Source: Ignavibacteriota bacterium (GTDB taxonomy: Bacteria; Bacteroidota; Ignavibacteria; UBA10030). From it: 53,629 nt of DNA. A program made the translations under genes and the position numbers. The stretch covers positions 1 through 53,629 of the forward strand of contig PMML01000026.1 of NCBI GenBank assembly GCA_003162695.1, read 5' to 3'. How positions within the stretch are numbered: position 1 is the stretch's first letter; the number at the start of each line of letters is the position of its first letter. The notes below the pieces were generated by a model. The model was not told where the DNA came from, did not search any database, and saw only the letters and a list, made by a program, of their open reading frames with translations. Shown here one piece after another: positions 23,432 through 29,286 of the stretch.

Positions 23432-24046
23432 ATGTCCTCTTTTCCGACGCCCCTCATCCTTGCTTCCCGGTCCCCGCGCAGAAAAAAATTATTGCACCAG
23501 ATCGGTTTGCGTTTTCGGATTATTCCGAGCGGTGCCGACGAAACATTCCAAAAAGGAATATCTCCGGCGCAAAATGCGCGCCGTGTTGCACTGCGGAAGG
23601 CTCGGGATGTTGCAGGGGGACTGAAAAATGGGATTGTCATCGGCGCCGATACAATCGTTGTTCTCAATAGGCATATTCTCGGCAAGCCGGTTTCTTTAAA
23701 GGATGCAAAGAGAATGCTGTATCTGCTGAGCGGAAAAAAACATTGCGTTTATACCGGTATCGCCCTTGTGGATGTCCGGTCGAGACAGGAATGGAGTGCA
23801 GTCGAGCGTACCTTTGTGAAATTCCGGAAACTTTCTTCGGAGGAAATCGACCGTTATGCCGCTTCCGGTTCGCCGATGGATAAAGCGGGAGCGTACGGGA
23901 TCCAAGACGATTACGGAGCGGTTTTTGTAGAAGAAGTGAATGGATGCTTCAATAATGTCGTCGGGTTTCCGCTTGCCCGTTTTTCTCTTCTTCTGGAATC
24001 GGCTCTGTCTTCGCTTCGGACGAAAAAAAAATCCCTTCTGCTTTGA
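23432..24046 (+). CDS. maf: Maf-family nucleotide pyrophosphatase
   Basis: A 204-residue house-cleaning pyrophosphatase that hydrolyses dTTP/UTP or modified nucleotides and has been linked to septation. The family start LILASRSPRRKKLLHQIGL, the GADTIVVLN motif with the catalytic Asp and the SGKKHCVYTGIAL block are present. It starts two bases after the EamA stop. The terminator that ends the operon begins within its last codons. Confidence 0.94.
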   Translation: MSSFPTPLILASRSPRRKKLLHQIGLRFRIIPSGADETFQKGISPAQNARRVALRKARDVAGGLKNGIVIGADTIVVLNRHILGKPVSLKDAKRMLYLLSGKKHCVYTGIALVDVRSRQEWSAVERTFVKFRKLSSEEIDRYAASGSPMDKAGAYGIQDDYGAVFVEEVNGCFNNVVGFPLARFSLLLESALSSLRTKKKSLLL

Positions 24047-24062
24047 GCAGAAGGGATTTTTT
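24029..24062. terminator. Bidirectional terminator between maf and cspA
   Basis: ATCCCTTCTGC (24031-24041) pairs with GCAGAAGGGAT (24047-24057), with T residues after it on the plus strand and a run of A before it, so it serves both maf (plus) and cspA (minus). It overlaps the maf stop codon. Confidence 0.93.
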
Positions 24063-24082
24063 ACTGATGTATTGCTCTTGAC

Positions 24083-24286
24083 TTAAGCTTGCTTTGAAAC
24101 TTTGACGGCCTGCAAGCCCTTCGGTCCTTCTTCAACTTCGAATTCGACTTTATCGCCCTCGACGAGAGTTCGATAGCCGTCTCCGTTGATCGATTTATAA
24201 TGTACGAAAACGTCTTCATTGGAATTACGTGTGATGAAGCCGTATCCTTTGGCATTATTAAACCATTTCACCGTACCCTGCTCCAT
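24083..24286 (-). CDS. cspA: Cold-shock domain protein
   Basis: A 67-residue single CSD protein that binds single-stranded RNA/DNA. RNP1 is KGYGFI, RNP2 is VFVHY, and the start [16 protein letters not shown] is family-typical. The start at 24286 is set by that pattern; the frame is open to 24319. Its leader is long and structured: a promoter at 24511-24539 would give about 215 bases of 5' UTR, as in known cold-shock genes where the leader controls translation with temperature. Confidence 0.95.
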
Positions 24287-24339
24287 AAGGTCAGTCCCCA
24301 TATAAGTTAAACAGCACACCGTTTTTTTGTCCTGGCAAT

Positions 24340-24370
24340 AAATGCATAGGAAACTCGTACCGATGCATTT
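24340..24370 (-). promoter_or_regulatory. Hairpin in the cspA leader
   Basis: AAATGCAT (24340-24347) and ATGCATTT (24363-24370) form an 8-bp stem with a 15-nt loop in the transcript about 55-85 bases before the cspA start. Confidence 0.5.
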
Positions 24371-24510
24371 CTTGCTTGGTCTGACACGAAATCTTGAAAG
24401 GATGCTCAGGTTTACTTCCTCACCGAGGTTTTACCATAGAACACACATCTGAAACGCGACAGTTCAAACAAATTGCACGAAACAAAACCGGTGCAGTGAA
24501 TTACGAACAA

Positions 24511-24539
24511 AGTATACAATTCAACTTTGATAAAAGCAA
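24511..24539 (-). promoter_or_regulatory. Promoter of cspA
   Basis: On the minus strand, TTGCTT (plus 24534-24539), 17-base spacer, TATACT (plus 24511-24516). It is the only good -35/-10 pair between the polymerase-like gene and cspA. Confidence 0.6.
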
Positions 24540-24564
24540 GTAGTTTAAGTTTAATGTAATAACT

Positions 24565-26916
24565 TCATTCGTCTTTATCGGCGAGCCATATCCCGGGTTC
24601 TTCCGGCATAGAGGCCTGATTCTCCGTCAAAAACGCCTCTTTTGAAGGCTTTCGTAAAATATTTACCGGAGGGGAATAGCCGAAAAGATCGTCGCCGGAA
24701 AAAATTTGATCGAAAGCTGCCGGTTCGAAAAAATCACTATAATGAGCGGCTACTTCCCGGAGGCGGGAGAGGTAATAGGCGGAGTTTTCATTCGGCATAC
24801 CCGGGTTCCATTCTTCTGCCAGCGTGCAATTTTCAAAAATCTTTACATCGGGATGAGAACCGGTGATATAATACCATAGTTCATCCCCCAGAGCAACATA
24901 GGTCTTCGTGCGCCGGGCTGCTTCCATTGCGGGAGCAGGGGTTCGTACGCCGGCAGCCGTTCCTTTTTCATAGTCTGTCAAATTTTCTTTTGCCGTCTCC
25001 ATCCTGCAGAAGTCTCGCGGGGTCCATTTGTGCTGTATGATGATTGTCGAATAGGATGAGTAGAGATGATGCAGACGTGTAAAATCTTCCGTCAGGATGC
25101 ACCCAATGCACCGGAGTGCGAATTGCTGTAAAAAATGCTCCGGTGTGCGCGGAATGAGTGCGCTTCCGCTCAGAAGTACGTTCTCCGTCGGATCGAGAAG
25201 TGCATAGCTTTTTCGTTTATGGCTCAGCATTGCTTGGTATCTTCCCGTGATCCTGATTTTTACCGGTGCGGCAAGATTATCGTTAAGACGATCGATGAAT
25301 GCCTGCTCGTTCTTATCTCCCAAAATGTTGTCGGGCAATGCAAAGAAAATATTCTCTCCATCTATTTGGAGAACCGGGGCATTGAATAGTTCAAGCTGCT
25401 GCACGATTTTTGCCGAAAGAATTCTGCTCTCTTCCTCAATATGCAGCGCGCTTACGGGGTCGTTGAATAGTCCTCTGGGCGAACCGAGATAATCTGCGAT
25501 ATGGTTGAGGAGGCTTTGCGCCGCCCACCGGCCGGCTCTTTGCTCCTGCCCGTCCATGCCGGAAACGATGATTTCTTCAAGATCGTGAACAAGCCGAGGA
25601 AGGATAGAAAGTGTGTCGGATGCGGATAGAGTTTTTTGTGCAAGAATAACCGACCGGCGGATCGATTCGATTTCCGCTTGCATCACATTCTTGAATAGTC
25701 CGGTCTGGAACGCTTCGGCAAAACTCGAAACCGGCTGTACAACCGGGCACGGCTGCGGAAGGGAATGACGCTGCCGTATATACTCGCGGGCCATCATCGA
25801 TTCAATGCGAATCTGAGCGCTTGCAGAAATGAGGGTTGTAAGATTAAGCGGGCACATGCGCGCCAGAGCGATATGCGGATTCAGAACTGCAGTGCTCAGC
25901 GATCGTACAAGGAGAGCAACGCGGCGGGAGTAATCTTTCAACTGCCGCGGATCGTCCTTCCACCATGTCTCAATTTCTCTCGGTGCGGCAAAGTTCATAT
26001 CCGGTATGATGTTGAACCGCTTTGCAAGATACCGGAGTGAATGATTGTGAAGGTTCCGTCTGGAACCGGCACATGAATCCGCGGCGCTGCCGCAATCGAC
26101 CACATGCCTGCCGAAAACTTCGTACTGGGCCGCGCCGCTTTCAACCGGGGGAAAGTTCACGGAACGCAGAAGGCTGCCGTTGCGCCCGAGAGTCAATGCG
26201 ACATTGAGTTCTTCCGCGCGGCGGAGAAGGAATGGAATTTGCCGGGTCAAAAGCTCATGCCCTTCAATAATATCCGGATCGATCCTGCCGACGAGATCGA
26301 CAAATGTTTTTAAAATCGATTCTTCATCTTCACGGGATGCATCCAGACTGAATTCCTGTCCGTCATTAGTTGTAACAGTCAGGATTCGGAGCGAACGGGT
26401 GAGCCTCTTTTTCCGCTCTCTCGGGAGCGGCCGGCCGAACTGTATATCGATCTGCATGCGCCGGATATCTTCATATGCCATTCCTTTAAAGAGTGTGGCG
26501 CCGGATTGCTGAAGATAATGACGCACCGGATCGTTGCGAAGGAGCACGGCAGGAATGTCCGTATAAGAATCGGCATGCACTTGAGATGAAGAATTGTAAC
26601 GTTTTAAGATATAATGAACCGCCTCCCACATTTCGCTCCATCGATGGAATACAGCTATCGAATGAAAATAATTTGTTCCGGAGAGTTCTTTAAGCCAGTG
26701 CGGTTTAGGAAATTGATCGAGAAGGTTCGGCTGTGAAAGCAAAAAAAACGGGAAAAAATCCGCATCCCGGTGTTCGACAATGCCGCCGATTCGCTTGTAG
26801 ATGCGTACGGTTTGGTCATTCAGCTGATTGACCGCAACAATGCATTCTTCCGTGCTTTGCCCATAGAGGAGGGTATCCATAGGAATATCTTGTCTCTCGG
26901 CTGCCGGCATTGTCAT
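24565..26916 (-). CDS. Catalytically inactivated family-B DNA polymerase homologue (783 aa)
   Basis: A full-length relative of bacterial family-B DNA polymerases in which the catalytic sites are lost. ExoI D-I-E reads DIQ (157-159); ExoII has EGHE in place of GxN and lacks the FD pair (218-226); ExoIII Y-x3-D reads YSRRV (329-333). Polymerase motif A, normally D-x2-SLYPS, reads EIESIRRS (415-422). Motif B K-x3-NS-x-YG reads QSLLNHIAD (467-475). Motif C DTD reads DGE (519-521). The KxY segment (569-571) and the surrounding scaffold remain: FKGMAYEDIRRMQ, RMCPLNLTTL, MMAREYIRQRHSLP, the thumb-like region and the C-terminal YYITGSHPDVK ... AYYLSRL. The intact length and open frame argue for a selected, non-enzymatic role. 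Starts at 26916, 26910 or 26880 are possible. It lies downstream of nfeD-slipin on the same strand. Confidence 0.82.
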   Translation of the reverse strand: MTMPAAERQDIPMDTLLYGQSTEECIVAVNQLNDQTVRIYKRIGGIVEHRDADFFPFFLLSQPNLLDQFPKPHWLKELSGTNYFHSIAVFHRWSEMWEAVHYILKRYNSSSQVHADSYTDIPAVLLRNDPVRHYLQQSGATLFKGMAYEDIRRMQIDIQFGRPLPRERKKRLTRSLRILTVTTNDGQEFSLDASREDEESILKTFVDLVGRIDPDIIEGHELLTRQIPFLLRRAEELNVALTLGRNGSLLRSVNFPPVESGAAQYEVFGRHVVDCGSAADSCAGSRRNLHNHSLRYLAKRFNIIPDMNFAAPREIETWWKDDPRQLKDYSRRVALLVRSLSTAVLNPHIALARMCPLNLTTLISASAQIRIESMMAREYIRQRHSLPQPCPVVQPVSSFAEAFQTGLFKNVMQAEIESIRRSVILAQKTLSASDTLSILPRLVHDLEEIIVSGMDGQEQRAGRWAAQSLLNHIADYLGSPRGLFNDPVSALHIEEESRILSAKIVQQLELFNAPVLQIDGENIFFALPDNILGDKNEQAFIDRLNDNLAAPVKIRITGRYQAMLSHKRKSYALLDPTENVLLSGSALIPRTPEHFLQQFALRCIGCILTEDFTRLHHLYSSYSTIIIQHKWTPRDFCRMETAKENLTDYEKGTAAGVRTPAPAMEAARRTKTYVALGDELWYYITGSHPDVKIFENCTLAEEWNPGMPNENSAYYLSRLREVAAHYSDFFEPAAFDQIFSGDDLFGYSPPVNILRKPSKEAFLTENQASMPEEPGIWLADKDE

Positions 26917-26979: not shown

Positions 26980-27744
26980 TTATTTCTTTACTTTTGCCAT
27001 TTCGAGGAACGGCGTAATCAAGTCGATCGGAACCGGGAAGATGGTCGTGGAGTTGTTCTCGGTTGCGATTTCGCGGAGCGTTTGCAGATAGCGCAATGTA
27101 AGAGCGCTCGGCTGCTCGCTCAATATTTTTGCAGCATCGGAAAGGCGCTGCGAGGCCTGAAATTCACCTTCGGCGGCAATGACTTTGGATCGGCGTTCGC
27201 GTTCTGCTTCCGCCTGTTTTGCCATGGCACGCTGCATTTCCTGCGGCAGGTCGATCTGCTTCACTTCGACGTTGGATACTTTAATGCCCCATGGCTCCGT
27301 ATGCGAGTCGATGATCTGCTGCAATTTCTGGTTGATTTTATCGCGCTGCGAAAGCAGATCGTCTAATTCCGATTGTCCCAAAACGCTTCGCAGGGTCGTT
27401 TGTGAAAGCTGGGAAGTGGCAAACAAATAATTCTCTACATCGATAACAGCTTTCTCCGGCTGCATGACGCGGAAGTAAATGACGGCATTGACCTTGACGG
27501 AAACGTTGTCCTGTGTGATGATATCCTGAGAAGGGACATCCATAACGACCGTGCGCAGGCTGACCTTGACCATGCGGTCGATACCGGGCCATAGCCAAAT
27601 AAGGCCGGGTCCCTTGACGCCGATCGAACGGCCGAGGCGAAAGATAACGCCGCGTTCGTATTCCCGCAGAATTTTAATGGAATTGCTGGCGAGGATAATA
27701 AAAAAAAGAACAAGAACAAAAGTCAAAAGAAAATCGGGTCCCAT
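26980..27744 (-). CDS. Slipin / stomatin-like SPFH protein
   Basis: A 254-residue membrane scaffold protein. One N-terminal helix ([19 protein letters not shown]) is followed by the SPFH domain: [36 protein letters not shown]-type strand [20 protein letters not shown], a coiled-coil [18 protein letters not shown] and the C-terminal [16 protein letters not shown]. Such proteins form oligomeric rings in the inner membrane. The NfeD partner lies three bases upstream, and AGGAG inside the nfeD end serves this start. NfeD proteases are known to cleave their slipin partner. Confidence 0.93.
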
Positions 27745-27747
27745 AAA

Positions 27748-29040
27748 TTACTCCTTTGTTTGTGGTAAGGGTTCGACAGAGAGGGTTAAATTTTCGATTC
27801 GTACGACGCGAACAGGCGTGCCCCGTGCGATCTTTCCGGAAATTGAAACCGCATTCCAGATTTCGCCGCGGATATGAATGGTGCCGCTGGGATTCAGCAC
27901 TTCGGCGGTTTCACCGGTCATGCCGATGATAGCTTCCTGGCCGTTCACGGGTTTGAGCCGCTGCGCTCTGAGTCCGAGACCGATCAGAAAAATAAAAAAG
28001 GCAGCCGTCGCAATTACGGTGAGAGCAACCACCGACCATGAAAGCTCGACGACTTCCAGTGCAGAATGAACGCGTATAAGCATAAGAGAACCGAGAATGA
28101 GTGATAGAATTCCGCCGGCAGTCAGCATACCGTGGCTGGTTATTTTAATTTCAAGGACAAAAAGGATAACGCCGAAAACAATCAATCCAAGTCCTGCATA
28201 ATTAATCGGCAGGGTCTGCATGGAATAGAGCGCCAGCGTCATGCTGACAACGCCGACAATTCCGGGAAAGATCAATCCGGGATTGTACAGCTCAAAGAGC
28301 AAACCGAAAATACCCAGCATAAATAAAATATACGTAATGTTTGGATCGCTGAGAGTGTCTAAAAATTTTTCAGTAAAATCCATTTCGATGACGTGTACCG
28401 ACGAACCGCGTGTGTGAATCGTTCGGATTCCTGCAGCCGTTTCGACCTGTTTTCCGTCGATCTGGATAAGAAGGCTGTCCAGATTCTTTGCAATGCAATC
28501 GATTACGTTCTTTTGCAGCGCTTCGGTTTCCGTAATTGCCTTGCTTTCGCGCACTGCCTCTTCCGCCCATGCAAGATTGCGTTTGCGCTTTTCGGCAATC
28601 GTACGTATAAACGCGGCGGCATCATTCGTGACTTTCTCGTTCATGACGGAATCTGTTTTTCCCTGCATATCGACAGGATGAGCTGCGCCTATATTGGTAC
28701 CCGGAGCCATGGCGGCGATATGCGCTGCCATCGTAATAAAGGCGCCGGCGGAACCGGCATGAGCGCCTCCCGGAGAAACATAGACAACGATCGGAATTTC
28801 GGATTCGAGGAATGACCGGACGATAGCGCGGGTCGATGTCAGCAACCCGCCTGGAGTATTTAATTGGACGACGACACATTCCGCATGCTGGTCCTGTGCC
28901 TGCTCTATACCATGCTGGAGGTAGTCTGCGGAAGCCGGATCTACCATCCCCTCAAGTTTCAAGACGACGACAGATTGGCCGTGGAGGACCGATGGAGAGA
29001 AGCAGGCATAAAGAAAGAAGGAGATAAGCAGATGTTTCAT
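27748..29040 (-). CDS. nfeD: NfeD-family membrane serine protease (long form)
   Basis: A 430-residue long-form NfeD. A signal peptide (MKHLLISFFLYACFSPSVLHG) precedes a ClpP-class protease domain: VVVQLNTPGGLLTSTRAIV, VYVSPGGAHAGSAGAFI with Ser97 as nucleophile, and MNEKVTNDAAAFIR with Lys136 as candidate partner of the Ser-Lys dyad. Four or five membrane helices and a C-terminal OB-fold (GMTGETAEVLNPSGTIHIRG) follow. GGAGG six bases before ATG 29040 sets the start; the frame runs on upstream only because it passes through two tRNA genes. It pairs with the slipin downstream. Confidence 0.93.
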   Translation of the reverse strand: MKHLLISFFLYACFSPSVLHGQSVVVLKLEGMVDPASADYLQHGIEQAQDQHAECVVVQLNTPGGLLTSTRAIVRSFLESEIPIVVYVSPGGAHAGSAGAFITMAAHIAAMAPGTNIGAAHPVDMQGKTDSVMNEKVTNDAAAFIRTIAEKRKRNLAWAEEAVRESKAITETEALQKNVIDCIAKNLDSLLIQIDGKQVETAAGIRTIHTRGSSVHVIEMDFTEKFLDTLSDPNITYILFMLGIFGLLFELYNPGLIFPGIVGVVSMTLALYSMQTLPINYAGLGLIVFGVILFVLEIKITSHGMLTAGGILSLILGSLMLIRVHSALEVVELSWSVVALTVIATAAFFIFLIGLGLRAQRLKPVNGQEAIIGMTGETAEVLNPSGTIHIRGEIWNAVSISGKIARGTPVRVVRIENLTLSVEPLPQTKE

Positions 29041-29100
29041 AAACGACCTCCGGCGGCATTGATGGATCAGGTTTGGTGTGTCAGCCGCTTTGAATGTCAG

Positions 29101-29187
29101 CGGAAGGGGAGGGATTCGAACCCTCGATAGCCTTGCGGCTACTCCGGTTTTCGAGACCGGTCGATTCAACCACTCTCGCACCCTTCC
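29101..29187 (-). tRNA. tRNA-Ser (anticodon CGA)
   Basis: An 87-base class II tRNA. Acceptor GGAAGGG/CCCTTCC, D-arm GTGGTTGAATCGACC, anticodon stem CCGGT/ACCGG with loop CTCGAAA (CGA), variable arm TAGCC-GCAA-GGCTA, T-arm GAGGGTTCGAATCCCTC, discriminator G. CCA is not encoded. It reads UCG. Confidence 0.95.
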
Positions 29188-29199
29188 AAGTGGTTTCTG

Positions 29200-29286
29200 C
29201 GGAGAGAGTGGGATTCGAACCCACGGTACGGTTTCCCGCACACACGCTTTCCAGGCGAGCCAGTTCAACCACTCCTGCATCTCTCC
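29200..29286 (-). tRNA. tRNA-Ser (anticodon GGA)
   Basis: An 87-base class II tRNA. Acceptor GGAGAGA/TCTCTCC, loop CTGGAAA (GGA) between CTCGC and GCGTG with one T-T mismatch, a long variable arm, T-arm GTGGGTTCGAATCCCAC, discriminator G, no encoded CCA. It reads UCC and UCU. It is 12 bases upstream of the other tRNA-Ser, so both are likely processed from one transcript. Confidence 0.95.

Follow-up and report, generated by a model that had tools for sequence, protein, structure and literature searches.

The window, that is, the whole 53,629-nucleotide stretch analysed here (contig PMML01000026.1 of an Ignavibacteriota bacterium), carries an intact open reading frame for a homologue of B-family DNA polymerases, accompanied by genes for a membrane-protease-like NfeD protein, an SPFH protein and a Maf-like protein (Table 1). 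Translation probably starts at the thirteenth codon, giving a product of 771 aa, because this is where the homologues begin. The domain order of the protein is canonical (N-terminal, exonuclease, polymerase); Pfam matches the exonuclease family PF03104 at 6e-6 and the polymerase family only at 0.038, as expected of a degenerate palm. In the AlphaFold model (50 aligned sequences, mean pLDDT 85.7, pTM 0.78), PolB structures align to residues 22-743 with Z of about 29-32, so the fold is predicted to be complete. The Pol epsilon core aligns with Z 26.5 in the same comparison, and no Pol epsilon structure stood among the best 60 of 117 matches of a sequence-profile search. Homologues are present in 49 of 61 related genomes (absent from 12); together with the Pfam exonuclease match and the fold match, this shows that the homology is not a matter of chance. 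Frame, fold model and structure matches agree with the initial annotation, which had described an intact PolB-like frame of about 783 codons with the domain order of PolB.

Table 1. Features of the locus, with residue numbers referring to the 783-codon frame
Feature	Coordinates	Strand	Remarks
Degenerate G3 B-family DNA polymerase frame	24565..26916	(-)	783 codons, conserved start probably Met13 at 26880
N-terminal domain, residues 13-150	26467..26880	(-)	90% of active-orthologue conserved positions retained
ExoI, residues 156-159	26440..26451	(-)	DIE -> DIQ (D157-I-Q159)
ExoII, residues 215-227	26236..26274	(-)	Asn -> Glu221, catalytic Asp -> Gln226
ExoIII	25918..25932	(-)	YxxxD -> Y329-SRR-V333; Tyr kept, D -> V333
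Motif A, residues 415-422	25651..25674	(-)	DxxSLYPS -> EIESIRRS; D -> E415
Motif B	25492..25518	(-)	K..NSFYG -> Q467...N-H-I-A-D475; K -> Q467, Y -> A474, G -> D475; N471 retained
Motif C	25354..25368	(-)	ExDTD -> Q517-I-D-G-E521
KxY motif	25204..25212	(-)	Retained, K569-S570-Y571
Thumb, residues 591-748	24673..25146	(-)	75% of active-orthologue conserved positions retained
D-D-L-F, residues 742-745	24682..24693	(-)	Candidate clamp-binding motif in flexible coil after thumb
C-terminal I-W-L, residues 776-778	24583..24591	(-)	End of disordered tail
SPFH/stomatin-like gene	26980..27744	(-)	Upstream syntenic neighbour
NfeD-like membrane protease gene	27748..29280	(-)	Upstream syntenic neighbour
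Maf-like gene	23432..24046	(+)	Convergent syntenic neighbour

The relatives were found with an alignment query, a contig search with the single protein having matched none, and those named are MAGs of Ignavibacteria, Kryptonia, Chlorobi and unplaced Bacteroidota. A few of their homologues are fragments and one is frameshifted; the others are full-length frames, so that the prospect of mostly frameshifted or absent homologues, raised in the initial annotation against its own reading, did not materialize. The frameshifted copy (L048:2068-4427, in G016, a 69% complete MAG) consists of two overlapping frames, through either an error of assembly or recent decay to a pseudogene. The order NfeD>SPFH>PolB>(B12)<Maf, whole or in part, is common to the intact forms in the order, to those lacking the exonuclease site and to those lacking both sites, which we refer to as dead. 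This shared arrangement indicates that the window gene occupies the same locus and is neither a paralogue nor a recent import; it is a vertically inherited, in-place orthologue of the active G3 PolB group. The Chlorobiaceae and part of family f5 lack the upstream NfeD/SPFH pair or the whole arrangement, and in many f5 orthologues NfeD and SPFH do not adjoin PolB. Most relatives have a B12-binding gene between PolB and Maf; the window's spacer (24047-24564) lacks it, with no detectable remnant, and it is missing at this place also in G001 and some g8 genomes. The neighbours were considered as a functional clue and offered none, the conserved order holding only membrane-protease-like, SPFH, B12-binding and Maf genes. 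The first ~80 residues of the NfeD-like frame (MQEWLNWLAWKACVRETV...) are unlike a signal peptide and are probably untranslated; the true start may be a later Met preceding KHLLISFFLYACF.

The assignment to G3 follows from the presence of Chlorobiaceae in the family. The window protein belongs with the Chlorobiaceae PolB, for example that of Chlorobium ferrooxidans (L156), and every Chlorobi species has one G3 PolB (PMC12926913); the group is therefore G3, or Pol-epsilon-N-like. An extra Glu in motif C is the signature shared by G3 and Pol-epsilon-N (PMC7544198), and in most of the intact orthologues this place has E[VA]DTDG. In many of them Exo I-III and motifs A-C are flawless, and the published description of G3 polymerases is of enzymes in which both the exonuclease and the polymerase site are conserved (PMC12926913).

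Read from the alignment to intact orthologues, all six catalytic motifs of the window protein are altered, each in the manner that the initial annotation had claimed. The Glu typical of G3, present in most intact orthologues (IEVDTDG), has become Q517. Because neither the exonuclease nor the polymerase active site is intact, the protein is, by its motifs, a degenerate G3 orthologue and not a G3 enzyme, apparently inactive in both capacities. All three metal positions of its palm are still acidic (E415, D519, E521), which may leave it a weak activity; the argument for inactivity also draws on the missing Lys and Tyr/Gly of motif B and the missing YP of motif A. Intact carboxylates at other positions, which the initial annotation had named as telling against its reading, are not seen: no replacement carboxylate is conserved in the palm of the dead homologues, and compensation elsewhere in the palm was rejected on that ground.

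Could the protein nonetheless be an altered polymerase, using the three acidic residues for slow or specialised synthesis such as translesion extension? Besides these residues and the retained KxY motif, there is a precedent. The archaeal 'inactivated' PolB (PMC2527604) is PolB2, for which a role in translesion synthesis has since been demonstrated (PMC7390963, PMC8764526, PMC11791011), so that the label of inactivity was wrong (PMC11791011); its history advises caution in judging activity by motifs. In PolB2, by contrast, motif A reads D.xSMYPS, motif B still has a Lys and motif C its second Asp. The window case goes further: Lys and Tyr/Gly of motif B and YP of motif A are lost, and the fingers have ceased to be conserved. 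The exonuclease residues are gone as well, and the clade-mates L044, L045 and L046 have no carboxylate in motif A and retain at most the second one of motif C. We consider such altered synthesis improbable, and the pattern of domain conservation described below also weighs against it.

The loss of the sites is not confined to a single lineage. On a tree of 83 aligned homologues, built with the motif columns excluded and rooted on Chlorobiaceae, 46 keep both sites, 19 have lost the exonuclease site only and 18 have lost both; loss of the polymerase site only was found in none of the 83. The fewest changes on the tree amount to at least five exonuclease losses and at least four polymerase losses. 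The dead forms of the window's family f1 make up a clade of 12 (SH-aLRT 94), whose inner order is unsure because of the long branches in f1, and other dead groups are L121 (f2), L124/L125/L126/L036 (f3) and L041 (f5). A single dead clade is rejected: a tree constrained to unite the dead rows is worse by 352 log units (AU p 0.00035). The tree shows that the predicted proofreading site was lost first and the predicted polymerase site afterwards, repeatedly within the order. This repeated loss is absent from the surveys of PMC7544198 and PMC12926913. Literature searches in openly accessible main text yielded no report of inactive G3 polymerases and nothing relevant on inactivated PolB in Ignavibacteria. 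Conserved inactive polymerase homologues are already known; of a conserved G3 homologue with both sites lost we found no report, and it appears to be new.

Selection was assessed by pairwise Nei-Gojobori dN/dS, the dead pairs representing clade-mates and an independent dead lineage rather than the window's own branch. The ratio is 0.130 for L083/L097, 0.154 for L006/L082 and 0.125 for L036/L126, the last pair being independent of the other two. When the pairs are pooled by class, the ratio is highest in the dead forms (0.134), followed by the exonuclease-minus (0.102) and the active ones (0.070). The higher ratio of the dead forms and the long branches within the dead clade are what would be expected if the gene were being lost, its frame remaining open by chance under relaxed selection after the need for it had ended; its absence from 12 of 61 relatives and the frameshift in L048 point the same way. 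However, all 18 dead forms of the tree have full-length frames on branches of up to 1.5 changes per site, synonymous and nonsynonymous differences are unequal in the dead pairs with p from 6e-43 to 3e-90, and the N-terminal domain and thumb remain constrained, which makes ongoing loss very improbable. A pseudogene was rejected on the full-length frames together with dN/dS of 0.13-0.15, on which the reading of the initial annotation, a conserved and apparently inactive bacterial PolB under selection, is likewise borne out. We regard it as highly probable that the protein is conserved and non-catalytic.

The constraint is unevenly distributed. Pooled over the dead pairs, dN/dS is 0.082 in the N-terminal domain, 0.125 in the thumb, 0.152 in the exonuclease domain and 0.178 in palm/fingers, which indicates that selection retains the protein in its entirety, the catalytic core least strictly, and that at about 0.18 the palm/fingers fold is still needed. 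Mean pairwise identity among active, exonuclease-minus and dead forms runs 0.44/0.49/0.46 in the N-terminal domain and 0.49/0.52/0.39 in the thumb, compared with 0.58/0.39/0.29 in the exonuclease domain and 0.60/0.58/0.28 in palm/fingers: each catalytic domain is relaxed only once its own site is gone. The core-shell difference in identity has a Mann-Whitney p of 1.6e-31, in a comparison whose columns are not fully independent and whose groups differ in depth. The drop in palm/fingers beside an unchanged N-terminal domain is the further argument against an altered polymerase. The window protein itself keeps 43% of the conserved positions in the exonuclease domain and 42% in palm/fingers, lower than in the two outer domains (Table 1).

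Two short motifs follow the thumb. The DDLF motif is conserved across the family, with an [LMI]F variant in 17 of the 18 dead homologues, and may by analogy be assigned a clamp-binding role from PMC12926913; it has no Gln, unlike the other candidate clamp motifs of the genome, QSNLF of DnaE, QTSLPLF of PolY and QELPLF of PolB2. The terminal IWL recurs in most G3 proteins of the Ignavibacteria type, whether dead or intact. We take this tip of the G3 tail to resemble the terminus of the PCNA-binding tail in archaeal PolBs. In place of IWL, the G3 C-termini of L134, L142 and L146 (Salinibacteraceae, Chloroherpeton-type) have E-E-V-P-F-like tips, which resemble the acidic C-terminal tip of SSB.

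What could a polymerase without catalytic sites be retained for? The absence of decay, together with the domain-specific retention, indicates that selection keeps a non-catalytic function, and on balance we favour the interpretation of the gene as a G3 polymerase with lost sites, under purifying selection for a non-catalytic function of its N-terminal domain, thumb and tail. The thumb and N-terminal domain would keep their grip on primer-template or gapped DNA, and the tail, through DDLF, IWL or both, would tether the protein to a partner, most simply and probably the sliding clamp; so bound, the protein could provide a platform, or hold a place, for a repair factor or a different polymerase. 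This last step, a platform on DNA and clamp, we propose only tentatively.

Among the other polymerases of the genome there is one DnaE, with no DnaE2, and one Y-family polymerase. The initial annotation had suggested a subunit working with an active polymerase, and a search for a paralogue did find another B-family polymerase, a PolB2 at G000:C59 (L049:9209-12588). It lies in an iRadA-PPB2-PolB2 operon with the bacterial gene order and an adjoining S24/LexA-like gene, the layout being that of PMC11791011; iRadA and PPB2 were assigned by position and resemblance. The motifs of this PolB2 read LDFVSMYPS (motif A) and IVDCVW (motif C). Two copies of a palindrome, AYGACA-N4-TGTCRT, occur in the shared upstream region of the operon, and the whole genome has four exact sites; the palindrome is likely a damage-response operator. 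None of the exact sites lies by the window gene, and shared control with the PolB2 operon was rejected, no common operator having been found. In the f5 genome that has a dead G3, PolB2 is itself broken into two pieces with a stop (G056:C113:3065-5258).

A dedicated subunit of the PolB2 mutasome, giving clamp or DNA binding to iRadA-PPB2-PolB2, would fit the presence of the operon in the window's genome. It would also fit the correlation of G3 and PolB2 presence across 53 near-complete genomes of the order, each at least 90% complete (counts 40/4/3/6; p 6e-4, kinship ignored), which has no parallel in the Y-family control (p 0.35), and the location of the operon a few kb from dead G3 genes in the f3 genomes G033 and G058. 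However, such proximity holds roughly for an intact G3 as well, the operon being about 18 kb away in G040. PolB2 presence does not differ between dead and living G3, and G001 (98% complete) and G052 (100%) have a dead G3 and no full PolB2 match, which leaves PolB2 as one client at most. Each of the two is also found without the other in the wider class, and the missing common operator counts against the subunit too. We therefore find a dedicated PolB2 subunit unlikely, and the same doubt applies to PolB2 as the main client, judged only by co-occurrence; in genomes having PolB2 it is, on that same ground, the most likely client. Of the suggestion of a subunit beside an active polymerase, the second PolB stands; a partnership may exist, but the two near-complete genomes keep a dead G3 without PolB2.

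The Ignavibacteria locus offers, within one bacterial order, a natural series from the intact polymerase through loss of the exonuclease to loss of both sites. This series separates catalytic from non-catalytic function in a widespread, uncharacterised G3 group related to Pol epsilon, and it documents that B-family polymerases with lost sites can persist in bacteria outside the PolB2 group. It also leads to the prediction that active G3 enzymes have a structural function too, borne by the N-terminal domain, thumb and tail. We venture, with less than even confidence, that G3 in the order is selected mainly for a non-catalytic, structural role of N-terminal domain and thumb, bound to DNA and clamp, with copying an option discarded at least four times. 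If true, this would be a bacterial parallel to eukaryotic Pol epsilon, whose non-catalytic function is the essential one.

How does the window protein compare with known systems? With its intact G3 relatives (PMC7544198, PMC12926913) it shares fold, domain order and gene position, whereas their E-x-DTD motif C and clear Exo I-III have no counterpart in it, both sites being lost. The kinship with archaeal inactivated PolBs that the initial annotation had drawn on does not hold, for those are PolB2 and active. Like the window protein, PolB2 (B2/G2; PMC2527604, PMC11791011) has a B-family scaffold with altered motifs and is conserved over long distances; it differs in keeping motifs A and B and the second motif C Asp, in its iRadA-PPB2-PolB2 operon and in its work in translesion synthesis. 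Against EIESIRRS, Q...NHIAD and DGE of the window protein, PolB2 has only the first motif C Asp replaced, and the neighbours at the window locus are SPFH, NfeD and Maf in place of that operon. Motifs and operon thus rule out membership in the PolB2 family, which is represented in this genome by the polymerase at C59. The C-terminal half of eukaryotic Pol epsilon is also an inactive PolB module, retained as a structural element beside active polymerases (PMC7544198), but it is fused to an active enzyme and its kinship is with Pol alpha, not with Pol-epsilon-N, whereas the window protein stands alone and has a separate origin. A DnaE2/ImuB mutasome is ruled out by the single DnaE and the PolB fold. 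The closest functional analogy is ImuB, a bacterial polymerase homologue without activity that acts as a clamp-binding scaffold; ImuB belongs to the Y family and works with DnaE2 and ImuA, while the window protein has the fold of PolB in a genome without DnaE2.
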